Source: a bacterium 1XD21-70 (GTDB lineage Bacteria; Bacillota; Clostridia; Lachnospirales; Lachnospiraceae). Taken from it: 60,417 bases of DNA. Both the position numbers and the translations under genes were made by a program. The stretch spans positions 1 to 60,417 of the forward strand of contig RAYB01000032.1 of NCBI GenBank assembly GCA_003669055.1, written 5' to 3'. Below are positions 632-15,910 of the stretch, piece by piece (positions within the stretch are counted from its first letter, which is position 1; the number at the start of each line of letters is the position of its first letter). Below the pieces are notes generated by a model. That model did no database searches. It was not told the origin of the DNA and worked only from the letters and a program-made list of their open reading frames with translations.

Positions 632-2038
632 ATGCCATTTTTTGAAAACGTCAACGATAAATTTTTTAACCCCTTCTGTTGCAGGAACCGGGAAATCTAT
701 TTTGAGTGCATCAGCCTTCTGATCGAAAAATCAAAGGAAATTCCGGTTCTTTATGAAACGGATGCGAGGAACTGTCTTATTCTGTATCTGCAGAACTGCC
801 AGTATTCCATCGAGACGGAGAATATCGGGGAGGAAGTGAGCAGCGGGCGCTCGCCGCAGGAGAATGCTTCCTCCATTCTCCGCTATTTCCGGATGTGTGG
901 GTGGATTACGCCTCAGGAAATCGGGCGGAGCGGCGATAATATTGCTTCCGTGTCAGCCTACTGTCGGCGCCTGATTGATGCGGTACACAAAATTTTTGAT
1001 ATGGATGTCAACAGCGCGATCACAAATCATATTTTTTCGATTTATGAGATCTTGAGAGCAGCCCTTGCCAGGGACAGCGCCCGTGCCATCCGTCCCTATT
1101 CCAATATTTTGGTGCCGCTGATTGAAAATGAATGTGACTTAAAAAATGAGCTCCTGGTTTTGAAGGACAGCATCCGCGAGATTATGCGGACAGTGATAAA
1201 AATAGACAGTGCCAACAGTTTTGGACAGTTTTTAATTAAGGATGAACTGCTGAACCGGTTTTTCAGCGATTATTTCTTTATCAAAAAAAGCGGTCTGATC
1301 CCATCCTACATTGCGGGTATTGACCGGATGCTGATAAAGCTGAGAAATTCAGAACTGTATGGCCAGATGATTAAGGAATACAGGAAAATAAAAAATGCGG
1401 ATGAAGCGCAGGCCAGGGAACGGATCGACCGGCAGTTTGACGAGTTGGACAGCTTTATTAATCTGGAATATGACCAGGAGATCGGCTATATTGACCGGAA
1501 AATCAACACTTACTATAATCTGTATTCCACCCGCATGCTGATGGTGCTGAGCAATGGGACGAACCTGGAAAGTGAACTGAACCGTCTGCTTTTGCTGTTA
1601 AAAGATATGGATGGGGAAGACCGGGAACTGGCACTGAGGGAGATTGGGCAGGCTCACCGTCTGCAGTCTGTCGGTTACATTGGCCGGAAATCCATAGAGC
1701 GGCGTCAGCGGCAAAATCCCAACATGGAACATGCAGGCCTGTCTGTCGGAACCCTCTCGGAGGAGGAAAAACGGCGGCTGACAGAGGAACTGCTGACGGA
1801 AATTCCAGACCGGTACAGCATGGACAATGTAAAAGAATATTTTGACCAGATGACTTTTGATAAGGGTAGGCTGTCGGTGGAGGAATGCAAAGTACATACG
1901 AGAGACGATGCGATGATGATTGCCGCCAGCATGATTTATTCCGGCACGGCTGGATTTCCCTATGAGGTAGAGTTTGAAAGCGGAATGGTGGAGACAGAGG
2001 TGGCCGCCATCAGCAGAATACAGATAAAGAGGAAATAG
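632..2038 (+). CDS. jetA: Wadjet anti-plasmid system protein JetA
   Basis: This 468-residue protein is the first of four tightly packed genes whose order, sizes and motifs fit a Wadjet JetABCD system. In Wadjet, JetA is the kleisin-like subunit that joins JetB and the SMC-like JetC; the complex extrudes DNA loops and JetD cuts small circular DNA such as plasmids. The N terminus (FFNPFCCRNREIYFE, residues 11-25) resembles JetA proteins of the DUF5716 group found in Clostridia. The protein is soluble, alpha-helical in character and has no signal peptide. The start is ATG at 632 with AGAGG about ten bases upstream. The stop is separated from jetB by one base, so translation is probably coupled. 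The assignment rests on operon context as much as on the protein itself; I did not assign a Wadjet subtype. Confidence 0.8.
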   Translation: MPFFENVNDKFFNPFCCRNREIYFECISLLIEKSKEIPVLYETDARNCLILYLQNCQYSIETENIGEEVSSGRSPQENASSILRYFRMCGWITPQEIGRSGDNIASVSAYCRRLIDAVHKIFDMDVNSAITNHIFSIYEILRAALARDSARAIRPYSNILVPLIENECDLKNELLVLKDSIREIMRTVIKIDSANSFGQFLIKDELLNRFFSDYFFIKKSGLIPSYIAGIDRMLIKLRNSELYGQMIKEYRKIKNADEAQARERIDRQFDELDSFINLEYDQEIGYIDRKINTYYNLYSTRMLMVLSNGTNLESELNRLLLLLKDMDGEDRELALREIGQAHRLQSVGYIGRKSIERRQRQNPNMEHAGLSVGTLSEEEKRRLTEELLTEIPDRYSMDNVKEYFDQMTFDKGRLSVEECKVHTRDDAMMIAASMIYSGTAGFPYEVEFESGMVETEVAAISRIQIKRK

Positions 2039-2039
2039 C

Positions 2040-2705
2040 ATGAGTGATATCAGTTTGCAGCTTACAATCAAAGAAGAAAGCAGTCATTTATTTAAGCGGT
2101 GCATCCGGAAACTTCTGGAGGCTACCTTTATTTTGCAGGATCGGGATGAAAAGCTGTTTGCATTTATATGCCGGGAATCAAACCGGCAGGATATTTCCGA
2201 ATATCTGCGGATGATCGGGTTTGATATTTTAGTGGATGAAAAGACCGGTGTGGGGATGCTGATTGCCAGCGAGGAGGACTCGGAGACTGTGGGATTAAAG
2301 CGTGCCAATGTGGTCACCTTTACAATGCTTCAGTACCATTTGCTGCTGGTACTCTGGAAAGTATACTTGGAAGGTCTGGGTTACAATGAGGGGAATTTTG
2401 TTACCAAGGGAGATTTGATTGACAAGATCAAGTCCTACGGACTGGTGCCGGTGCGCACGGAGTTGAACGCTGCGTTTAAGCTTTTTAAGAAGTACAGTCT
2501 CATCAATTATGCTGAGGATGGGGATGGGGAGGATATGAAAATCAAGCTCTATCCATCTCTGCAGTTCGGTTGGGATCTGCCCCAGTTTCAGACGGTTGCG
2601 CGGGAGTATTTAAAGGAAGATGCCGAGGCGGTTTTGGAAACAGAAATAGGGCAGGAGCCGGATCTTGCAGAGAATTTGGTGGAGTTTGAGGAGGAAGAAT
2701 TATGA
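2040..2705 (+). CDS. jetB: Wadjet anti-plasmid system protein JetB (DUF4194-like)
   Basis: This 221-residue protein is the expected size for JetB, the MukE/kite-like winged-helix subunit that bridges the kleisin JetA and the JetC ATPase. Segments such as EYLRMIGFDI (about 53-62) and KGDLIDKIKSYG (about 123-134) fit the winged-helix part of the DUF4194 family. The C-terminal 35 residues are strongly acidic and end in a run of glutamates. The gene starts one base after the jetA stop, and its TGA overlaps the ATG of jetC in an ATGA arrangement, which points to translational coupling within one complex. No odd residues or breaks are seen. Confidence 0.8.
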   Translation: MSDISLQLTIKEESSHLFKRCIRKLLEATFILQDRDEKLFAFICRESNRQDISEYLRMIGFDILVDEKTGVGMLIASEEDSETVGLKRANVVTFTMLQYHLLLVLWKVYLEGLGYNEGNFVTKGDLIDKIKSYGLVPVRTELNAAFKLFKKYSLINYAEDGDGEDMKIKLYPSLQFGWDLPQFQTVAREYLKEDAEAVLETEIGQEPDLAENLVEFEEEEL

Positions 2706-5700
2706 TTTTGCTGAAAAAACTCCGATTGATTAACTGGTATGGTTTTGTCAATGAAACAGCGCCCATCGGTTTTTTTACCTTGATTGCCGGAAAGAATGGA
2801 AATGGAAAATCGGTCATGCTGGATGCTATCAAATACGCGGCTTATGGTGATACGGTGTTCAATAAGTCCTCGGAAAGTAAGGGGAGCCGGACGCTTTCCT
2901 CCTACACCCGGGGACTTCTCGATGCCACGGCGGGGACTTATATGCGCCCGGCAGGTAAGGTGCCCAATGTATACAGTCATATTGTGCTGGAATTTTATGA
3001 CAAGACGGAGGAGAAATCCTTTATCCTTGGGACAGCGATCGAGACCAATGCGGCCAACAACTGCCAGTCCTACCGCTATGTGATGGATCGGAAAAATCTG
3101 GAGGAGGTAGAGCATGTCTGTGTGGAAAATGGGATCGCCAGACCCTATACGGCTTCGGAACTGCAGAAACGGTATCGGCTGACTCTTTTGAACCGGGAAC
3201 AGGGGCTTCCTCGGTTTATGCAGATGACGGGTTTAAAGCTGACCATCGACCAGCTTCCCACCTATTTGAGAAAGCTGCGGGGAATCATGTCCTATGACCC
3301 CAATGCGAAAATTGACCGTTTCATCAGGGAAAGTGTTCTGGAAGAAAAGAAAGTGGACTTTTCCAAACTGATTGAGGCAAGGGAGAACATTGAACGGTTA
3401 AACGACATGTTTTCCAGTATTCAGAATGAGATTGGAGAACTGGAGGGAATCCTTGCGGAGTATGACGGCTGCGAAAGTGAGAAAAATCGTCTTTTGACGG
3501 ATGACATTAAAATCAGTTATAAGAAGATCAAGGGGCTGAACGGGGAAATCGAGAGGCGGATCCGGGAGCAGGTGCTGGCAAGGCAGAAAAAGGAAGAGAC
3601 AGATCAAGCTCTTGAGGTGCTGAATGACCGCATGGGAAGCCTGGATGACCGGCTGCTGGATGCGAGAGTCAGCCTGAATCAACTGGACAGTGCCAAAATG
3701 ATCGAGGAGGAGAAACGGCGTCTGGCAGTTCTGGAAGGGAAGAAAAAGGAACTGTCATTACAATGCAGGGAACTGGAGGATTTCCAGACAAAAATCAGTG
3801 AGATTCTTCATCATTTTTTGAAGGAGGGCAGCGAAGCAGTCGGGAGTCAACAACCCCGCTGCAAGCAACAAGACATCAAACTTGCAGCGTTGCAGAGCAG
3901 CGGGGTTGTTGACCCCGCGGGCAGTCGCCAAAGTCAAGCCAGCTTGACCTTGGCTCGTTGCCTTTGCGAGAATAAGGAGGTTTTGGCTTCTTTGTGTGGC
4001 AGCGGGTATCCGGCGGCGGAGAAACGCCATGCGGTTGAGGAATTGAAAAAGCTTGTGGATGCAGCCCATGAGAAACAAATCGGAGTCCTTGTCCGCCTAG
4101 AGCAGGGGCTGGGAGACCTTGGCAGAAAGCTGACCGCACAACTGGCAATTGTGGAAGAGTGCAAAAAGCACAGGAATGCCTACGGACAGATTCCCGGATA
4201 CGTGGGACTGCGGGATGAAATCAACAAGGAATTTGCAAAACGGGGGATTCCGGAAAAGGCGCAGTTCGCCTGTGAATATGTGATCGGGATTTCTGATGAG
4301 AGTTGGCGGGATGCCATCGAGGCGTTTTTGGGTCCACGGCGCTACAGTATTCTGGTAGAACCACAATATTACGATATTGCGGATGATGTGCTGAACCGAT
4401 CCCAGTATAAGTACGCCCATCTGTTCAATACAAAGCTGCTGATGCGAAAAGAGATGAAACCGGAGGAGGATTCGGTGGTACATATGCTGGAAATCAAAAA
4501 CCCCGTGGCAAAGAAATATTTTGATTTCCAATTAGGACGCATGCATGGGGTGAAACTGAATGAGGTTCGGAATTTCGAGAATGCCATTTCCAGAGAAGGG
4601 CGTGTGTCTGTGGCCATGGACAGCTTTTTCCTGCGGTTTGAGAAAATTAGGTCTTACTACCTGGGGCAGAAGACCTTTGAACTTAACCGGATCCGAGCCG
4701 AAAAAGAGATGCAGCGCCTGAATGAAGAAAAGAAGCAGTACCTGGAAGAAAAGAAAAAGGCAGAAGGACGGAAAAACCAGCTAAAAATGGATCGGGAGAC
4801 CTTTAAGGAATACCAGTACGATGTACACCAGCAGTATCAGGAGACGACAGCGGCGGCAAAAGAGTCGGAAACTCAACTGAAACGGTTGAAGAAAGCCCAG
4901 CAGAATAACCGGGAGTATCTGGAACTGAGCCAGACGGTGGCAAGACTTCAGTCAGAGAAGGAGGCCGTAAAGAACGAGCAGGAGAAAAAACTCCAAGAAA
5001 GCAGCGAACTGGAAACCACAATTCAGGTCTGCGGCAGGGATATTGACCGAAAGGCGGCAGAACTTAAGAGCGAGGAGGCTGTCTTTTTGGAGTTTGAGAT
5101 TAAGGCCTATTCTGTAGTACAGAAAGCGGTGGAGACCTATGAGAAGTATCTGGAGAATGGGAAAAATAGCCCCGGCGGACTTCTTGCGATCGAAACAAGA
5201 GGGAGAATCCAGCGAAGCATTGAGCAGCATAAGAAAGCACTTTTCGGACTGCAGGCGGCCTATAACACAAAGCACGCGGATCTGGGACTTCCCACCGGCG
5301 AGGAAGGCCGGGAAATCTTTGCCGCCAGAAAAGACCGCATCTGGATGGATAATCTGCAGGAGGTGCGCAGGAAGCTGGAGGAGCAGACAAGACGGTATGA
5401 GGATATTTTCAAAAATGAATTTGTTCTGACAATTCTGAAGTATTGCAGAAAGGCGCGGGAAGATTTAAAACAGATGAATGCAGAACTTTCCCGGTTGAAT
5501 TTCTCTGCCAAGTACCAGTTTGATGTCCACTATGTAAAGGACAGTTCCGAATATGCCAGAATCATTAAATTTGCGGAATATTTGGATGAGCGGGAAAAGC
5601 TGGGCACCGCGGACGGTCAGATGACCTTTGGGATGTTTACCTCAGTTACTGATGAGGCGGGAGAGCAGCTGGAAAAGGATTTAAAACAGATTATCAACCG

Positions 5701-6145
5701 GATTATTGAAAAAAACAGCGAAGAAACCATTGCCCAGTTTGCGGATTACCGGAATTATATGACCTATGAAATTTTAATCAGCAACCAGATTTTAGATCGG
5801 GCGAAGCTTTCTCGGCAGACCGGCTTTAATTCCGGAGCGGAAGTACAGATTCCATATCTTCTGATTCTGTCATCGGCGCTTTTGATGATTTATAATCAGA
5901 GGGTCAATTCTACGCGCCTTGTTTTTATTGATGAGCCTTTTGCCAAGATGGATCCGGGAAATGTAAAGCTGATGCTGGATTTCATGAAGAAACAGAAAAT
6001 GCAGGTGATTTTCTGTTCGCCGGACAAGACAGAATCCATCGGAAATGCGTGTGAGGTCATTCTTCCAGTGCTGCGTGTGCGGGCGGACAGTATGCTACTT
6101 GGAATTGTGCAGTTCCATAAGGAGAAGGCAAATGAATCAGTATGA
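2702..6145 (+). CDS. jetC: Wadjet SMC-like ATPase JetC, with in-frame palindromic insertion
   Basis: This 1147-residue SMC/MukB-like ATPase is the motor of the Wadjet complex. The Walker A motif GKNGNGKS is at residues 30-37, and a Walker B-like VFIDEP is at about 1074-1079 near the C terminus. Between them are two long charged coiled-coil arms (about 210-375 and 660-800) around a hinge-like globular part (about 480-640, including YVIGISDESWRDAIEAFLG). Residues about 380-423 interrupt the first arm with a Gln/Ser/Ala-rich, non-coiled segment. The DNA there (3841-3970) is a set of nested palindromes, so this segment is probably an inserted repeat that kept the frame. The gene overlaps jetB by 4 bases and jetD by 14. 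If the insertion breaks the coiled coil the protein could be impaired, but the frame is intact and insertions in SMC arms can be tolerated. Confidence 0.88.
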   Translation: MILLKKLRLINWYGFVNETAPIGFFTLIAGKNGNGKSVMLDAIKYAAYGDTVFNKSSESKGSRTLSSYTRGLLDATAGTYMRPAGKVPNVYSHIVLEFYDKTEEKSFILGTAIETNAANNCQSYRYVMDRKNLEEVEHVCVENGIARPYTASELQKRYRLTLLNREQGLPRFMQMTGLKLTIDQLPTYLRKLRGIMSYDPNAKIDRFIRESVLEEKKVDFSKLIEARENIERLNDMFSSIQNEIGELEGILAEYDGCESEKNRLLTDDIKISYKKIKGLNGEIERRIREQVLARQKKEETDQALEVLNDRMGSLDDRLLDARVSLNQLDSAKMIEEEKRRLAVLEGKKKELSLQCRELEDFQTKISEILHHFLKEGSEAVGSQQPRCKQQDIKLAALQSSGVVDPAGSRQSQASLTLARCLCENKEVLASLCGSGYPAAEKRHAVEELKKLVDAAHEKQIGVLVRLEQGLGDLGRKLTAQLAIVEECKKHRNAYGQIPGYVGLRDEINKEFAKRGIPEKAQFACEYVIGISDESWRDAIEAFLGPRRYSILVEPQYYDIADDVLNRSQYKYAHLFNTKLLMRKEMKPEEDSVVHMLEIKNPVAKKYFDFQLGRMHGVKLNEVRNFENAISREGRVSVAMDSFFLRFEKIRSYYLGQKTFELNRIRAEKEMQRLNEEKKQYLEEKKKAEGRKNQLKMDRETFKEYQYDVHQQYQETTAAAKESETQLKRLKKAQQNNREYLELSQTVARLQSEKEAVKNEQEKKLQESSELETTIQVCGRDIDRKAAELKSEEAVFLEFEIKAYSVVQKAVETYEKYLENGKNSPGGLLAIETRGRIQRSIEQHKKALFGLQAAYNTKHADLGLPTGEEGREIFAARKDRIWMDNLQEVRRKLEEQTRRYEDIFKNEFVLTILKYCRKAREDLKQMNAELSRLNFSAKYQFDVHYVKDSSEYARIIKFAEYLDEREKLGTADGQMTFGMFTSVTDEAGEQLEKDLKQIINRIIEKNSEETIAQFADYRNYMTYEILISNQILDRAKLSRQTGFNSGAEVQIPYLLILSSALLMIYNQRVNSTRLVFIDEPFAKMDPGNVKLMLDFMKKQKMQVIFCSPDKTESIGNACEVILPVLRVRADSMLLGIVQFHKEKANESV
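3841..3970. repeat. Nested palindromic repeat element inside jetC
   Basis: The outer arms at 3846-3862 and 3897-3913 are a perfect 17-bp inverted repeat (GTCAACAACCCCGCTGC and its complement). An inner perfect 9-bp pair lies at 3857-3865 and 3881-3889. A second hairpin follows with arms 3927-3939 and 3942-3954, matching at 12 of 13 positions. No stop codon is created in the jetC frame. This density of symmetry is unlike the flanking coiled-coil coding sequence and suggests a REP-like or RPE-like mobile palindrome. Only one copy was noticed in the window. The element's true ends are uncertain by some tens of bases. Confidence 0.75.
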
Positions 6146-7370
6146 GGAAAAAATGCTGGTTTTGTTGGCTGAAAAATACAGGAAAAGTAAAAAGGACAAC
6201 AAAACCGGCATGATTTCCAGGCGAACCCAGGCAAAGCCATCGGAACTTTATAAAAATTATAATCGAAATGACGCGGATTTGGAACAGATCGAGGCGGTCA
6301 ACCAGGCAGCAGAAGAATGCAGGAAAAAAGGCTTTCTTACCTATAAGATGAATGGATTCAGCAGTGAAATTATGAAAATCTATCTGGTGGATGAGAAAAT
6401 CAGTGAGGTGGAGCAGTATCTGACAGAGCATTATCAGTATGAACCCAAATATGTGAAACAGCAATATGTGGAACGGATGATTGAAACCTACGGTGGGAAA
6501 TCGCCGGTGGCCGGCAAGGAGTGTGAGAAACTTAAACGGATACTGGATCGGAACAGGGTGCCCAAAGATTATCTTCAGACGGAGGAGATCTTAAAAGCGC
6601 TGGTGTTTATTGAGAATAATGAGTGGGATTTGTATCTGCGGGAAGCCTCTATGCTGATTTATGGAAGTTCCAAATATCTGGAGGAGCATACTCTGGAAAG
6701 CGTGTGCCGTCTTTTACGTGCACATTGGAACCGGCCGTTGGGAGAAAAGGAATTTTTCGATGAGATTTTGGAGGAATACCATATTACCAGAGAAAAGCAG
6801 AAAATATGCCTGAAAGGGGACGTCACGATCAAAATCGCCGGGAAGGTGCTGGAGGTCGGCGCGCTGGAAGACGGGATCGAATTTTTTGCTGACGGGCTTG
6901 AAAAGCTGGAATCTGTCAGAGTGCACACGGCTGATTTTATGACAGTGGAAAATCGGACCGCTTACTTCCGATGTGGAAGATCGGGTGCTTCGTTCTTTTA
7001 TCTGGGCGGCTATGCGACCCGGTTTCAGCGGGATTTTTTGAAAAAGGTTTACCGGGACAATCCCGAGGTCCGGTATCTGCATTTTGGTGATATTGACGCG
7101 GGGGGATTCTATATTCATGAGCATTTGTGCCGGGTGACGGAGATTCCGTTTGGGATGGATCGAATGTCGGTGAGGGAACTTGAGGATGAACGGTTCTCTG
7201 GCTGTTTACAGGAGTTGACGGAAAATGACAAAAAGAGGCTTGGGGCGCTTCTTGACAGGGAAGAGTACCGGGAGACGGCCCAGTATATGCTGGAGAAGGA
7301 TGTGAAGCTGGAGCAGGAGATTGTGAGTTTGGGTGGGGAGAGTACGTTTATGCCTTTTGGTGTGAGGTAG
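6132..7370 (+). CDS. jetD: Wadjet nuclease subunit JetD (DUF2220/Toprim-like)
   Basis: JetD is the nuclease of Wadjet, a topoisomerase VI-like protein with a C-terminal Toprim domain that cleaves DNA held by the JetABC loop extruder. The motif HFGDIDAGG at about residues 317-325 gives the metal-binding Asp-x-Asp of the Toprim fold, and an acidic C-terminal region follows. The reading frame is open upstream to 6045, but that part lies wholly inside jetC. The ATG at 6132 has AAGGAG eight bases upstream and gives a 412-residue protein starting MNQYEEKM, so it is the better start. The 14-base overlap with jetC suggests coupled translation. No signal peptide or membrane segment is present. The gene ends the operon. 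Confidence 0.82.
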   Translation: MNQYEEKMLVLLAEKYRKSKKDNKTGMISRRTQAKPSELYKNYNRNDADLEQIEAVNQAAEECRKKGFLTYKMNGFSSEIMKIYLVDEKISEVEQYLTEHYQYEPKYVKQQYVERMIETYGGKSPVAGKECEKLKRILDRNRVPKDYLQTEEILKALVFIENNEWDLYLREASMLIYGSSKYLEEHTLESVCRLLRAHWNRPLGEKEFFDEILEEYHITREKQKICLKGDVTIKIAGKVLEVGALEDGIEFFADGLEKLESVRVHTADFMTVENRTAYFRCGRSGASFFYLGGYATRFQRDFLKKVYRDNPEVRYLHFGDIDAGGFYIHEHLCRVTEIPFGMDRMSVRELEDERFSGCLQELTENDKKRLGALLDREEYRETAQYMLEKDVKLEQEIVSLGGESTFMPFGVR

Positions 7371-7980: not shown

Positions 7981-8919
7981 ATGGCTGTTCCAAAACGCAG
8001 CAGGCTGCTGAACGGAGGAAGAGGTAAAGGCGGGGAAGGAAGATGGTACCTGTTCCGGCTGGGTGGTATCCTGGCTCATATGTTGGATCTGCAGGTGGAG
8101 AAGGCAGGGGTGCTCCGCCTGGACGATGACGACGAGAAGCTGTTAGGGCAATATCTGGAGAGGACGCCGGAAAGCCTGCCGGATGTACTAGGAACCGGCG
8201 GCAGTGCCGCACGAAAGCGGACAGAAGCAGAAGGGGTTGGCACCCCGCAGGAGGCGGCAGCGGCTTATCTTGTAGGTTTGAAGGCCTGCGATGCGGATCA
8301 GATGCTCCGTTCGTTTTCCGTGGAAAGCTACGGGGAAAATTATGATCTCCTGGCATATGCAGAATATACCCAGATGTATTTGTTTATGGGGCAGGATGTG
8401 AAGTTCCCGGGGGTTAATGCATTTGCCAGGGCGGCCATAAGCTATGACAGGGAAAAAAGCCTGGAGAAGGATATATTGAAACAGGGGAAGGCGCTTTATT
8501 TGTGTACCCAATATTCTGCCGGTGCCCAGGCTGGTGTGGAAAATGATATTTCCAGCTGGGAGGAATTGGCTAAGAAGGTGGATCTGGCTTCGGTTGAGAT
8601 CCTGGGCGTGATTCCTGTGGAAGCGTTCCCGGATTCCGCCATGATGAAGAACATGGCTGCCCGGGATGGGCAGAAGGCGCCGCTTTATGGGGCGGAGCAG
8701 ACGGAGCCTTGTGTGGATGCCTATGAGTGTGGAGGCGTAAGGTATGCCTTATTTATGGAAGCAGTAAAGTATAACGGCAAATGGTACAATAACCGGATCG
8801 GGAACGCTCTTTCAGAGGCTTTGGGGGTAAGCCCGGATTTTATGGGGGCAGTGCCCTTGGAGGTTTTGGGCGATCCGGGTCAGATATTGGCAAAACCAGA
8901 AAGGATACCAGGAGTATGA
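7981..8919 (+). CDS. Hypothetical protein, uncertain or altered N terminus
   Basis: I do not recognise this 312-residue protein. It is soluble and acidic in the middle. A segment from about residue 92 (EAAAAYLVGLKACDADQML) followed by NYDLLAYAEYTQMY resembles small extracytoplasmic or lipoprotein-like Lachnospiraceae proteins, but no signal peptide or lipobox is seen in this frame. The start is unclear: ATG 7981 has no ribosome binding site, GGAGG at 8014-8018 has no ATG in frame at a proper distance, and the next in-frame ATG is at 8080. Another frame from ATG 7973 reads MNPWLFQNAAGC and then stops. A frameshift or 5' loss at the island edge would explain this. The stop overlaps the yaaA ATG (ATGA), so this gene and yaaA are likely co-transcribed. 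Confidence 0.55.
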   Translation: MAVPKRSRLLNGGRGKGGEGRWYLFRLGGILAHMLDLQVEKAGVLRLDDDDEKLLGQYLERTPESLPDVLGTGGSAARKRTEAEGVGTPQEAAAAYLVGLKACDADQMLRSFSVESYGENYDLLAYAEYTQMYLFMGQDVKFPGVNAFARAAISYDREKSLEKDILKQGKALYLCTQYSAGAQAGVENDISSWEELAKKVDLASVEILGVIPVEAFPDSAMMKNMAARDGQKAPLYGAEQTEPCVDAYECGGVRYALFMEAVKYNGKWYNNRIGNALSEALGVSPDFMGAVPLEVLGDPGQILAKPERIPGV

Positions 8920-10866: not shown

Positions 10867-10895
10867 TTGTTTTCTGGCAGGCAGGATGGTATAAT
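10867..10895 (+). promoter_or_regulatory. Candidate promoter of the FRG-AIPR-MEMO unit
   Basis: TATAAT (10890-10895) is preceded after 17 bases by TTGTTT (10867-10872). It sits 30 bases before the FRG start codon, in the divergent gap with ldh. The bases around the -10 (GGTATAAT preceded by GCAGGAT) resemble those of the promoter at 7938-7966. Confidence 0.55.
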
Positions 10896-10924
10896 AAAAA
10901 CCATGGATGAGGAGGGCATTTGAG

Positions 10925-12091
10925 ATGGCAGCAGTAAGAAGCAATATCCTTCCCAAAGAGAAGAACATAAGGGACGAATGGGTCCGCGACGTTTCCCAGT
11001 TTATAAAGCGGGTCAATGAATACATCCAAGTGAAAAGCAGTGCCGACAGCACGGTTGTATACCGGGGGGAGCCGGAGGTTTATCCGTCCCCCTGCAGGCC
11101 GAATATTTTCCGCAAGGGGGTTATGGACGGCAACCGCTTTTTTGAAAAGAGCCTGTTTGATACCATGAGGCAGAACAAGCTGACAGGAGAAAGCCGCTAT
11201 TTGGACAATGCCATAGACGCACAGCACGGGGAATTTCCCAGCCGGCTTCTGGATGTGTCCTATAACTGCCTCACTGCCTTGTATTTTGCGGTGACCCCCT
11301 ATTACCACAACCGGGAGGATGCCTTAGACGGCAAGGACGGGATGGTATTTTTATTTTTTGTGGATGAGATATTCAGCCCCAGCGCCCAGAATACCAATGA
11401 CAATTATGATGCGATCATCAAGCGTGACTGCGGATGGTACCAGGATAAACAGCTGTTTGAAAAGAACCATAAGTTTATTGACCATACAAAGCTGAACAAC
11501 CGGATTATCGCCCAGCAGGGGGCGTTTATCCTGTTCCCGGGGGATGAGCCGGAGAACCTCCCGGAATGCATGGGCTATGGGATCCGGATCCCGGGAGAGG
11601 CCAAGCCGCTGATCCGCAGGGAATTGAAGCAGCTGTTTGGCATTCATACGGGAAGCATATACCCGGAGATCATCAACCTGGTCGGGGAACTCAGCAGCAA
11701 AAGCAAAAAGCTGAACACGGAAGAGTTCAATTGCAAGAACGAACTGCTTTATGCGTGGAGGCAGATGGAGAAGGAACTGGACTACTATCTGGATTATGCC
11801 ATTGGGCTGGGCAAAAACGGCAGAAAGCATGGGGAAGCAGTCCCTGTGCAGGTGCTTATGCATATGGAGCATGTGATTGATAGCTACCGCAAAGGCTTTT
11901 TGGAGTTTGCCAGGGATTGGCAGGATGGGAAGGAGCCTGGGCAGGAGGGGCAAAAAGGTGATTTGCGGATGGAGGACTTAAAGATGGTTATCGAAAAATA
12001 CAATCAGTCTGTGGAGGAATTTTCCCGAAATTTACAACAGTATGGGATCGGGGAAATTTCCGAGAAGATGCTGCTGATCCGTTTGGACTGA
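10925..12091 (+). CDS. FRG-domain protein, putative defence component
   Basis: This 388-residue protein has the FRG-domain pattern: YRG at residues 46-48, QH at 100-101 followed by PSRLLD (105-110) and ALYFAV, and a later AQQGAFILF (196-204). FRG domains are named after the Phe/Tyr-Arg-Gly motif and often occur near phage-resistance genes; their biochemical activity is not established to my knowledge. The C-terminal third (about 230-388) is helical and charged with no recognised motif. The start at 10925 has AGGAGG nine bases upstream; the ATG at 10907 overlaps that site and is less likely. Its stop lies 31 bases before an AIPR gene in the same direction, so the two are probably co-expressed. 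The domain call is firm; a defence role is inferred from family and partner. Confidence 0.82.
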   Translation: MAAVRSNILPKEKNIRDEWVRDVSQFIKRVNEYIQVKSSADSTVVYRGEPEVYPSPCRPNIFRKGVMDGNRFFEKSLFDTMRQNKLTGESRYLDNAIDAQHGEFPSRLLDVSYNCLTALYFAVTPYYHNREDALDGKDGMVFLFFVDEIFSPSAQNTNDNYDAIIKRDCGWYQDKQLFEKNHKFIDHTKLNNRIIAQQGAFILFPGDEPENLPECMGYGIRIPGEAKPLIRRELKQLFGIHTGSIYPEIINLVGELSSKSKKLNTEEFNCKNELLYAWRQMEKELDYYLDYAIGLGKNGRKHGEAVPVQVLMHMEHVIDSYRKGFLEFARDWQDGKEPGQEGQKGDLRMEDLKMVIEKYNQSVEEFSRNLQQYGIGEISEKMLLIRLD

Positions 12092-12122
12092 CTGGCTTGG
12101 CAAAAAGGGGTGAATAAAAAGC

Positions 12123-14411
12123 ATGGGGATGATGATCCAAAAGAAGAAGCAGGCCGAGAATATCAGGAATTACATTGATAAAATACTGAAAAACCAGGAA
12201 ATTGACTGTGACGAGGAATGGTGGAACGGCGAGGGCGTTGAGGAGGAACTCACAAAGCTGGCCGGCACAGAAAAAAACCATGTCTGCGATCCGGGCATGT
12301 TCAGCATGGAAGGGGACGAGAGGCTGGTTTTCGCTGCTTTTCGGGAGAGGCCGGAGGAACTGTTGGAGGAACTCACAAAGCTGGCCTGCCAGCTGGCAGA
12401 ACAGAGTGAACTGGCAGGGATCCAGTTCATATTTTTTGTGCGGGATATGAAGGGAAGGGTATGCCTGGAGGAGGCTTTGGACCGTGATTTCCTCACCAAG
12501 CTGAGAGCCAATGTCAGGAGGGTATCTGGGAACAGGAGGCTGTCAGTCCATTGTACCTATATCCTTCAGAAGGAGTTTGCCAAGCAGGATGTGAAGCTGA
12601 AGAACCTGATGCGCCATGAGATGATACAGATGCCGCCGATCCGGGGAAGGATCAACCAGGAGGGCCGGGAGGAGACAACAGGTTCCGGGAGCCCGGGGGA
12701 GCATTTGAATGCGCTGGTCTTTACGATGGATCTGTATCAGCTGGCGGAGTTATACAATTTAATCGGGGATAAGCTTTTTAAGAACAATGTCCGTTTTGGC
12801 ATCAGCGAGATGCTGGGGGTGGATTATTCGATCCGTGAAACCCTGGACAAGGAGCCGGAACTGTTTTGGTTTAAGAATAACGGAATTGTGGTTTTGGTGG
12901 AGAATCCGGATTTTAGGCCTAAAAATGCGGAAGAGTTGGTGCTGGACCATATAGGGAGGGATAAGGAGCCAGGTTTTTCCGTTGTAAATGGGGCACAGAC
13001 GATCACTACCTCTGCCCGGTATTTTTTTGAGATGGAATACCGCTGGCAGAACAGCAGTGAAGGGAGCGAGGAAAGGCTGCGTTACCAGAAAAAGCTGGAA
13101 GCAGCCAAAAAGGCTCAGGTGTTGGTACGGATCATCCATATTTCCGGGGAAAAGGAGCAATCCTCAGATATGGCGAAGGCGCTCAGTGTGGCATTGAACC
13201 GCCAGAAGCCGATCAAGATGGAGGATATTGCCTTTACACTGCGTTTTGTGGAAAAGCTGACAGGATACCTCAACCGGCCTTATGCGGATAACAAGGAGTC
13301 TTTTGGGCTGGTCAGGCGGGGGGAAGGCGGCGAGGCCGGGCAGTATATGGATCTGGTGGAGTTTGCCCGGGCAAGGAAAGCCTGCCTGGGGGAACCTGGG
13401 GAAGCCAGAAGCCAGGGGGCAAAGACCTTGTTAAAGATCCAGCCAGGAGAAGGGCTGCCGGATTTTTTCCAGCAGAAGGATATCTTTGTGGATGAATGGC
13501 TGGAGGCGGATGAGGCTGAGGAGGAACGCGTGTTCCGGCGCCATTACGGTGCATTGTGGTTTGCCCATCAGGCAGCCAGGGAATATGACAGGTGCAGAAA
13601 GGCGGTTGCCAAAGAACAAAGGGATGATTTCAGGACTGTCATCAATAACGGGAAATGGTATTTTACGGCCGTTTTAGTCCGGCTTTTGAATGGCTTTGCC
13701 CCGGATTTTGTGGAGAACGGCAGGGGGCTGCCGGATTTTACGCGGTTTACGGTTCCTTTCGGGACGGTGCGCGAGAATATTCCGGGAGCCATGGGGCTTT
13801 TTGCGGATATTGTGCTGCTCTACATAGAAGGAAAAGAAGAATACAAGAACCTGGATTCCAACCTTTTTAAGAAAAGCGACCTCTATAAGAATCTGATGGA
13901 AGAAATCCGGCATTTCTGCTGTTTGGGGGCACAAGGGAGGACAAAACTGGAATGCCGGATACAGGAATTGGCAGATCTGTTTTTGGGGGAAGGAGACCGG
14001 GCATGCTATGCCGGTGACGGGCACGGCATGGGGGAGCCGCCTGCGGCCGGGCAGCTTACAAACAAGGTGGTCTTAAAGGGCAGCATGCGGCCGCTAGAGA
14101 GCATTGTCCAGGCCATGAAGGAAACGGTACGGTATGTCCTGGAGAACTATCCGCTTTCCGGGGAACAGATTAAGGAACATGGTTCCGGCTGGCTGACGGA
14201 CGAGGAGAACGTGGAGGGGGCTGCCGGCTGCATGCGCAGGCCGGAAAGAATCCAGGCAAGAGGGAAAAACTACTGGGTGGGAACCTTGTCCAATACGCGG
14301 GTCAAATGCCGCCAGATGGCGCGCCTGTGCCAGGCGGCAGGCGTGCCAAAGGGCAAGGGCGAGGTCGCCTGGTATGGGGATTCGCCGGATGAGCCGGTAT
14401 TTTACTGGTAA
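12123..14411 (+). CDS. AIPR-family (abortive infection phage resistance) protein
   Basis: This 762-residue protein carries the AIPR core: FWFKNNGI at residues 248-255, VNGAQT at 288-293, then a beta-rich stretch QVLVRIIHI and ALNRQKPI at 357-364. This matches the family pattern of a NNGI segment, a NG.QT segment and an N.Q.P segment. AIPR proteins were first noted as plasmid-borne abortive infection proteins; the mechanism is not known to me. The first 190 residues are variable and contain a duplicated short segment (EELTKLA at about 41-47 and 83-89). The last 120 residues (about 640-762) look like a separate domain with a WVGTLSNTRVKCRQM segment. The start ATG has AAGGGG 12 bases upstream. 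The gene follows the FRG gene by 31 bases and precedes the MEMO/AMMECR1 gene by 46. Confidence 0.82.
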   Translation: MGMMIQKKKQAENIRNYIDKILKNQEIDCDEEWWNGEGVEEELTKLAGTEKNHVCDPGMFSMEGDERLVFAAFRERPEELLEELTKLACQLAEQSELAGIQFIFFVRDMKGRVCLEEALDRDFLTKLRANVRRVSGNRRLSVHCTYILQKEFAKQDVKLKNLMRHEMIQMPPIRGRINQEGREETTGSGSPGEHLNALVFTMDLYQLAELYNLIGDKLFKNNVRFGISEMLGVDYSIRETLDKEPELFWFKNNGIVVLVENPDFRPKNAEELVLDHIGRDKEPGFSVVNGAQTITTSARYFFEMEYRWQNSSEGSEERLRYQKKLEAAKKAQVLVRIIHISGEKEQSSDMAKALSVALNRQKPIKMEDIAFTLRFVEKLTGYLNRPYADNKESFGLVRRGEGGEAGQYMDLVEFARARKACLGEPGEARSQGAKTLLKIQPGEGLPDFFQQKDIFVDEWLEADEAEEERVFRRHYGALWFAHQAAREYDRCRKAVAKEQRDDFRTVINNGKWYFTAVLVRLLNGFAPDFVENGRGLPDFTRFTVPFGTVRENIPGAMGLFADIVLLYIEGKEEYKNLDSNLFKKSDLYKNLMEEIRHFCCLGAQGRTKLECRIQELADLFLGEGDRACYAGDGHGMGEPPAAGQLTNKVVLKGSMRPLESIVQAMKETVRYVLENYPLSGEQIKEHGSGWLTDEENVEGAAGCMRRPERIQARGKNYWVGTLSNTRVKCRQMARLCQAAGVPKGKGEVAWYGDSPDEPVFYW

Positions 14412-14457
14412 AAAGGCTGATATTGAATCAGCAGGAAAATGAGAGGAGGAGTTGTCC

Positions 14458-15843
14458 ATGGCTGTTGAGGCAGCATTTGTAGTTCCGCACCCGCCGCTGA
14501 TTGTGCCGGAGATCGGAAAGGGGGAGGAGCGGGCGGTCCAGAAGACGATTGATGCCTACCGCCAGGTAGCCCGCAGGATCGGGGAAGCCAAACCAGATAC
14601 AATAGTGGTGATTTCTTCCCATCAGGTGATGTATGCCAATTATTTCCATATATCTCCAGGCGAGGAGGCCAGGGGGACTTTCGGGAAATTCCAGGCAGGG
14701 CAGGTGGGCTTTGAGGTTACCTACGATACCGAGTTTGTGGAACTTCTCAGTGGGCTGGCGGCAGAGAAGGGGCTCCCCGCAGGGACACAAGGGGAGACAG
14801 ACCGCCAGCTTGACCACGGGACTATGGTACCTTTATATTTCATCGGGAAATGCTGGACAGACTGCCGCCTGGTGCGCATCGGCATGTCAGGGCTGTCCCT
14901 GATGAGGCATTATGAACTGGGGCAGTGCATCAAGGAGGCGGCAGAACTTCTGGGCAGGAAGACGGTAGTGGTTGCCAGCGGGGATCTCTCCCACAAGCTG
15001 AAATCCAAAGGACCTTACGGGTTCCAAAAGGAGGGGCCGGAGTACGACAGCCGGATGATGTATGTGCTGGGGAACGGGGATTTTGGGGAACTTTTGGAAT
15101 TCCCGGAGGAGTTGTGCAACAAGGCGGGGGAATGCGGGCATCGCGCCATTGTGATGATGGCAGGCGCCCTCGACCGGACTGAGGTGACGGCAAGGCGCCT
15201 TTCCTATGAGGGGCCGTTTGGCATTGGGTATGGGATCTGTGAATACCTGGTCCGCGGGGAGGATCCCAAGAGGGATTTTAAGGAACAGCATGAGCAAAAG
15301 GAACGGGTGAAGGTTCGCGCCCAGATTGAGAAGCAGGATGCCTATGTGGGGCTTGCACGCAGGGCAATCGAAGAGTATGTCCGCACGGGGCGTACAATGG
15401 GGATCCCGTCCGGCCTTCCCAAGGAACTGTATAGCCAAAGGGCAGGGGCATTTGTATCCATTAAGGAGAACGGAAGCCTGCGGGGGTGCATCGGAACCAT
15501 CCAGCCGGGGGAAGAAACCCTGGCCGGGGAGATTATCCGCAACGCGGTCAGCGCGGCAGTCCGCGATCCCAGGTTTGCCCCGGTGGAAGCGGAGGAACTG
15601 GACCGTTTGAGCATTACCGTAGACGTGTTAGGTGAGGTGGAAAAGATCCGTTCCGACAAAGAACTGGATGTGAAACGCTATGGGGTGATTGTGTCGTCGG
15701 GCAGCAGCAAGGGGCTTTTGCTGCCGAACTTAGACGGGGTGGAGACTGTCCGGGAACAGATTGCCATAGCCAGGAGGAAAGCAGGCATTGACGAACGGGA
15801 AGAGGTAGAACTGGAGCGGTTTGAGGTAGTGAGGCATTTCTGA
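14458..15843 (+). CDS. AmmeMemoRadiSam protein: MEMO-like/LigB plus AMMECR1 fusion
   Basis: This 461-residue protein joins two conserved domains. Residues about 1-265 are a MEMO/LigB extradiol-dioxygenase-like domain, with early HPP (11-13), LDHGTMVPL near 121 and SGDLSHKL, whose His and Asp residues can bind metal. Residues about 285-461 are an AMMECR1 domain with SLRGCIGT and RDPRFAPV. Such fusions define the A/B parts of the AmmeMemoRadiSam set, which usually includes a radical SAM protein. No radical SAM gene is present here; a terminator follows at once. The function of the set is unsettled. The ATG at 14458 has GGAGG eight bases upstream; the in-frame TTG at 14452 is too close to that site. 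The gene is 46 bases after the AIPR gene and has no promoter of its own that I can see. Confidence 0.88.
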   Translation: MAVEAAFVVPHPPLIVPEIGKGEERAVQKTIDAYRQVARRIGEAKPDTIVVISSHQVMYANYFHISPGEEARGTFGKFQAGQVGFEVTYDTEFVELLSGLAAEKGLPAGTQGETDRQLDHGTMVPLYFIGKCWTDCRLVRIGMSGLSLMRHYELGQCIKEAAELLGRKTVVVASGDLSHKLKSKGPYGFQKEGPEYDSRMMYVLGNGDFGELLEFPEELCNKAGECGHRAIVMMAGALDRTEVTARRLSYEGPFGIGYGICEYLVRGEDPKRDFKEQHEQKERVKVRAQIEKQDAYVGLARRAIEEYVRTGRTMGIPSGLPKELYSQRAGAFVSIKENGSLRGCIGTIQPGEETLAGEIIRNAVSAAVRDPRFAPVEAEELDRLSITVDVLGEVEKIRSDKELDVKRYGVIVSSGSSKGLLLPNLDGVETVREQIAIARRKAGIDEREEVELERFEVVRHF

Positions 15844-15851
15844 CAGGCGAA

Positions 15852-15881
15852 AGAATCCTGCACGGCAGGGTTCTTTTTTTT
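15852..15881 (+). terminator. Intrinsic terminator after MEMO/AMMECR1 gene
   Basis: GAATCCTGC pairs with GCAGGGTTC around a three-base loop (one G-U pair) and is followed by an eight-T run. It begins nine bases after the stop codon and is a textbook intrinsic terminator closing the FRG-AIPR-MEMO unit. Confidence 0.9.
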
Positions 15882-15910
15882 ACGCAGGCCCATGCAATGG
15901 AAGTTTGCCG

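Follow-up and report, generated by a model that had tools for sequence, protein, structure and literature searches.

Parts of the locus described here are known from several systems. SspE (SspABCD-SspE) and DndI (IscS-DndBCDE-DndI) are phosphorothioation-sensing DUF262 effectors, and a passage of PMC11662687 takes DndB into the ParB-like superfamily. MzaE of the MZA system and the AbiU/AIPR abortive-infection proteins share Pfam PF10592, the AIPR family, and PADLOC contains PDC-S15, a single-gene candidate with an FRG domain. Passages in PMC9503650, PMC2292703, and PMC3506569 link the FRG and AIPR families to defense, which agrees with the phage-resistance contexts given for both in the preliminary description of this DNA, and the PDC-S15, AbiU, and MzaE models of PADLOC were also matched. 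In the 60,417-nt contig RAYB01000032.1 of the Lachnospiraceae bacterium 1XD21-70 (this whole stretch is called the window below), a gene for an FRG-domain protein directly precedes a gene for an AIPR protein, and our analysis supports the view that the two form a recurrent module that looks like a defense system, with a putative anti-phage role. The parts are known; the FRG-AIPR pair and a SeqA-like domain in the AIPR protein appear to be undescribed in the open-license literature (a scope that leaves out preprints and most subscription journals), where no paper contained both "FRG domain" and "AIPR" and related combinations gave nothing relevant. The composition had already been thought new on first inspection, and this search agrees.

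The FRG gene lies at positions 10925..12091 of the + strand and encodes 388 amino acids (aa); the start at 10925 was preferred by eye to that at 10907 on account of its ribosome-binding site. The AIPR gene, which encodes the putative sensor partner, follows after 31 bases (12123..14411, + strand, 762 aa), and a MEMO(LigB)/AMMECR1 fusion gene follows after a further 46 bases (14458..15843, + strand). The coordinates and the Pfam assignments confirm the gene order, strand, and spacing first reported.

The two genes also occur together outside the window, a point that an earlier proposal had suggested checking in other genomes. When 299 genomes of the family were searched for AIPR, eight were positive (counting that of the window), and all eight have FRG directly upstream. 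Patterns derived from FRG alone, run against 84,980 genomes, returned 27 loci, and AIPR sequence comes next on the same strand in every one of them, in pieces at L038 and L042 and cut short at L034. The two counts overlap (L020, L022, L024, L025, L041, L042, and L043 are probably the same records in both), and L018 and L019 are one metagenome-assembled genome. The gap between the genes ranges from -104 to 320 bases, with AIPR starts taken from the longest open reading frame (ORF), and lies within 50 bases in 24 of 28 pairs. At L034 (8521-15827), the AIPR gene appears by eye to be split by some 5 kb of inserted DNA with recombinase-like genes, with a SeqA-like C-terminal piece beyond it. At three other loci, a similar-looking small gene of 150 to 199 aa is directly upstream of FRG (L026:326-778, L028:9536-9988, and L027:9388-9987); the two that were scanned had no Pfam match, and this gene is perhaps a regulator or a third component in a subgroup.

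A general association of FRG with AIPR was rejected. In a sample of 398 genomes from the phylum, Pfam AIPR was found in 22, and FRG was adjacent in 3 of these (the window, G569, and G341), a proportion that might suggest unrelated genes lying side by side by chance or through an annotation artifact. However, these three AIPR proteins, which have the lowest three Pfam scores of the sample, belong to one distinct lineage within which pairing is complete (27/27), and this refutes chance or artifact as the explanation. The FRG profile also gave weak matches (E, 1e-11 to 1e-12) at four places in the sample away from the listed AIPR matches (G366, G377, G650, and contig 12 of G341).

Phylogenetic analysis of 28 FRG-linked AIPR proteins with 19 others, MzaE not being among the rows, gave a tree with several long branches in which all of the FRG-linked sequences fall on one side of a single branch with support of 99/99. 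Pairwise distances for FRG and AIPR are strongly correlated across the 28 pairs (Spearman, 0.95), and none of 1000 permutations gave a value as high. Alignment A3 was made without L038 and L042, the loci with AIPR in pieces, and A4 without L042, while L034 was kept. Given the single clade and the parallel divergence, the pair in this sample descends from one AIPR lineage and has been inherited jointly. The AIPR protein is the faster to diverge, with 38 to 56% identity to the window's copy among the first 14 relatives versus 58 to 70% for FRG, a pattern that would suit a partner whose role is to recognize an opponent.

The MEMO/AMMECR1 gene does not travel with this conserved pair. No such gene was found near any of the 27 loci, within up to 10 kb on each side and less at contig ends. 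It was matched in 10 of 31 genomes searched, the window's own included. Among seven congeners that carry it, it is directly beside spoVAD in five and within 2 kb of it in a sixth, and FRG-AIPR is upstream of it in none of the six with upstream DNA (the seventh contig begins just before MEMO). One of these genomes, G311, has the order yaaA, ldh, MEMO, and spoVAD without the pair (ldh, spoVAD, and the other housekeeping neighbors were named by eye). Alignment of this empty site with the window runs on the left through the start of ldh and resumes on the right at the MEMO ribosome-binding site; therefore, the pair either entered as a two-gene cassette or was lost from G311, and insertion between ldh and MEMO/AMMECR1 is the most likely course. 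The gene product is an AMMECR1-MEMO fusion (Pfam LigB, E 5.2e-46, and AMMECR1, E 2.5e-45; TIGR04335, 133 bits against a cut-off of 99; TIGR04336, 32 bits against 26), as in AmmeMemoRadiSam, but no AmrS radical SAM partner scored over the cut-off in the genome, which is 96.7% complete (best, 22.1 bits against 220). We thus do not count MEMO/AMMECR1 among the components; it belongs to the host and is a neighbor only, and neither the three-gene unit of the preliminary description nor the cofactor-like partner that it considered holds.

The case for a three-gene unit, in which MEMO/AMMECR1 would work together with FRG-AIPR, would have to rest on the transcription signals. It is contradicted by the lack of MEMO/AMMECR1 near related pairs, by the congeners that have this gene beside spoVAD without the pair, and by the empty site, and it is very improbable. 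The 46-base gap has no + strand terminator-like site in our scan, which placed one at 14384-14398, overlapping the last AIPR codons, and a single strong rho-independent terminator with a T run follows MEMO/AMMECR1 (15850..15881, + strand; fold of 15846-15886, -17.9 kcal/mol, z -4.5). Co-transcription of the three genes is possible. Of the one promoter and one terminator proposed to enclose them, the terminator stands, and the promoter is only plausible: the candidate at 10867..10895 (+ strand; TTGTTT, 17 nt, and an extended -10 TATAAT preceded by TGG; TGGTATAAT) is a weak, by-eye reading that a consensus promoter scan omits, the scan total itself being at chance (4 found versus 3.8 expected).

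The FRG domain spans aa 43-126 (Pfam PF08867, E 1.5e-10; 42.3 bits against a curated cut-off of 25), and 12 models of PDC-S15 recognize the protein (best E, 5.2e-31). Unlike PDC-S15 as a single-gene candidate, the FRG clade found here is paired with AIPR at all 27 loci. Residues R47-G48-E49, A99-Q100-H101, S106-R107, H187, R193, and P247-E248 are invariant over 29 rows. A passage of PMC9503650 assigns Frg to the ADP-ribosyltransferase (ART) superfamily and considers that it may be an NADase and could act as an antiviral effector in prokaryotic immunity; by this literature, FRG is an ART-superfamily protein, and it is probably a cell-disabling enzyme. Searches of the PDB with the AlphaFold model, which has a predicted local distance difference test score (pLDDT) of 84, gave a best Foldseek E of 0.12, VIA rows mostly covering aa 181-388, and no ART entries; because the C-terminal helices fill these lists, the catalytic part was not probed, and the absence of ART entries excludes nothing. 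Searches for FRG relatives in plasmids and phages were unproductive, and 13 pattern matches in viral contigs included no relative.

The AIPR protein matches Pfam PF10592 (E 6.1e-16; 59.4 bits against a curated cut-off of 25) and, weakly, the AbiU, MzaE, and "Abi alpha-like" models. Unlike MzaE, it scores 28.4 bits against an equivalog cut-off of 1050, its neighbors are not MZA genes, and it belongs to the separate FRG-linked clade of a tree that does not contain MzaE. Its AlphaFold model has a pLDDT of 83 and a predicted template modeling score of 0.55. In this model, the core (aa 190-361; 12690..13205, + strand) aligns at moderate Z with the N-terminal domains of SspE and DndI, which have the DUF262 fold, and it also resembles that of BrxU. 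An invariant NGAQT motif lies inside the core (aa 289-293; 12987..13001, + strand) and is found in 28/28 AIPR rows at the putative place of DGQQR; because NGAQT replaces DGQQR, the protein was not filed as DUF262. Resemblance of the core to DNA-modification sensors is moderately supported. Unlike SspE and DndI, the AIPR protein has no HNH nuclease match, the putative effector is on the separate FRG protein, and the window's AIPR adds a SeqA-like domain. Comparison of the AIPR profile with DndB gave no useful result, and a search for AIPR in plasmids was unproductive. Viral contigs hold at least 14 distant AIPR relatives (L045-L058), with 29 to 40% identity over short stretches that cover parts of the core region only.

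That the AIPR protein carries a SeqA-like C-terminal domain (aa 650-760; 14070..14402, + strand) is well supported. SeqA, a negative modulator of replication initiation, also has an N-terminal oligomerization domain. The AIPR domain shares the SeqA DNA-binding fold and a YWVxTxxNTxxK stretch; unlike SeqA, it is found in Bacillota and as a fusion, with AIPR here and with TIR in G451. Foldseek alone found nothing below E 0.001 with the AIPR model and placed SeqA at rank 17. The window's domain had no Pfam family match at E 5, and we therefore call it SeqA-like rather than SeqA; PF03925 was matched by 4 of 17 members (best E, 0.0079). The position of SeqA N152 is N in 15 of these 17 rows, and neither N150 nor R118, both of which we take for contact residues, is preserved. 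Since a D12-type methyltransferase is encoded elsewhere in the genome, the predicted DNA binding could be directed at an adenine mark. A profile built from 17 rows matched 19 AIPR rows, 17 of them by construction and two more (L028 and L036) that were outside it. The domain is missing from five phosphorothioation-linked AIPR proteins, from G341, L039, and L089, and from the cut L034, and it is present in L033. In another Bacillota genome, a TIR-domain protein (L137:9046-10392, - strand) apparently has two copies, the second seen by eye, and looks like a second defense-type architecture that uses the domain.

Several FRG-AIPR relatives are linked to DNA-modification loci, a conclusion that is moderately supported. 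Five of the 27 loci are in or near phosphorothioation genes, several of these pairs being inside dnd loci. L043 has dndH, B, C, D, E, and A followed by FRG and AIPR on one strand, while L037 and L040 have dndF, G, and H followed by FRG-AIPR and, on the opposite strand, a dndA-type gene. In L040, a Clostridium neonatale dnd locus, a KAP-family NTPase gene (12947-14848) directly 3' of AIPR precedes the dndA-type gene and perhaps encodes an extra component. PbeA, PbeC-type, and DndA-type genes are ahead of the pair in L041 (we take Pbe to be phosphorothioation based), and in L044, DndC, DndB, and a PbeC/DndD-type gene are about 4 to 10 kb from it. Elsewhere, the pair is preceded by genes for a GHKL ATPase, an HNH protein, and a Type II-like methyltransferase (L033) or has an RloB-type pair nearby (L039), and in G341 (L090, from the phylum sample) the order is AspBHI/Mrr enzyme, MutH, FRG, AIPR, and a C5 methyltransferase, the last assigned by eye. 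Phosphorothioation genes were not seen in the available DNA around L039 or L089, whose AIPR proteins lack the SeqA-like domain. In the window itself, a Wadjet set (632-7370; JetA, a DUF4194 protein that is presumably JetB, JetC, and JetD) lies about 3.5 kb upstream of FRG, separated from it by an unknown gene, yaaA, and ldh. The unknown gene (7981-8919) encodes a 312-aa protein with no match in Pfam, PADLOC, or NCBIfam.

The defense context that had been inferred from neighboring genes is therefore mixed; it is seen in the window and in several relatives in dnd, Pbe, or restriction-modification loci. Mechanical ORFs of at least 150 aa within 5 kb of 17 other loci (L022, L033, and L037-L044 were left out, of which L033, L037, L039, L040, L041, L043, and L044 were examined separately) gave 122 flanking proteins with almost no PADLOC defense matches at 1e-10, namely, HTH_VI (3 members), RT-Protease_XI (2), a GlgB model (1), and RmrA (1). 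Stand-alone pairs were thus rejected as regular members of defense islands. This scarcity favors a toxin-antitoxin-like pair in which AIPR merely sequesters an FRG toxin, the whole being a selfish or stabilizing element without phage sensing. The strict two-gene pairing with short gaps and the empty site in G311 would also be expected of such an element. However, the AIPR protein is large, with sensor-type domains, and is the faster-diverging partner, and several pairs are in dnd and restriction-modification loci; we regard a toxin-antitoxin-like pair as unlikely.

The roles of the two proteins could also be reversed. AIPR itself would then be the effector, acting as the nuclease or RNase that has been suggested for AbiU1/AIPR with HEPN, and FRG would regulate it or modify its target by ADP-ribosylation. 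In a passage of PMC3506569, AbiU1/AIPR is described with an N-terminal HEPN toxin domain and a restriction-modification link, and the weak similarity of AIPR to the MzaE, AbiU, and "Abi alpha-like" models points in the same direction. In contrast, FRG is the more conserved partner, and family scans found no nuclease match in AIPR (HEPN was not searched by itself), which makes this arrangement improbable.

We favor, at close to even confidence, a patchily distributed, co-inherited anti-phage module in which AIPR senses DNA modification and licenses FRG to halt the infected cell. The AIPR core would have the DUF262/ParB-like fold of modification-sensing enzymes such as SspE, DndI, and BrxU, with NGAQT where those enzymes have the nucleotide motif DGQQR, and the SeqA-like domain may bind DNA according to its methylation or replication state. 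Wrongly marked DNA would change the shape of AIPR, releasing or activating FRG, and FRG would then consume NAD+ or ADP-ribosylate a target and thereby stop the cell. In several lineages that branch early and lack the SeqA-like domain, the pair may have been appended to dnd, Pbe, or restriction-modification loci that make such marks. The mark would be a phosphorothioate for dnd-linked forms, while the stand-alone form would read methylation or replication state through its SeqA-like domain. A broader and more doubtful proposal is that Bacillota have adopted a SeqA-like DNA-reading module as a sensor for defense proteins that target NAD+ (AIPR-FRG and, separately, TIR), reading hemimethylation, replication state, or missing host marks and triggering an ART-type effector in trans.

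The FRG and AIPR families are known from defense neighborhoods with little mechanism, and their pairing, together with a DNA-reading domain, offers each a concrete partner and trigger. If the broader proposal is correct, self/non-self recognition of the restriction type and abortive infection would be joined in one two-gene unit. A SeqA-like domain that does sense methylation or replication state would give abortive-infection systems a new means of distinguishing host from phage DNA, and it would account for the occurrence of the same pair in loci for phosphorothioation and restriction-modification, where such marks are made.
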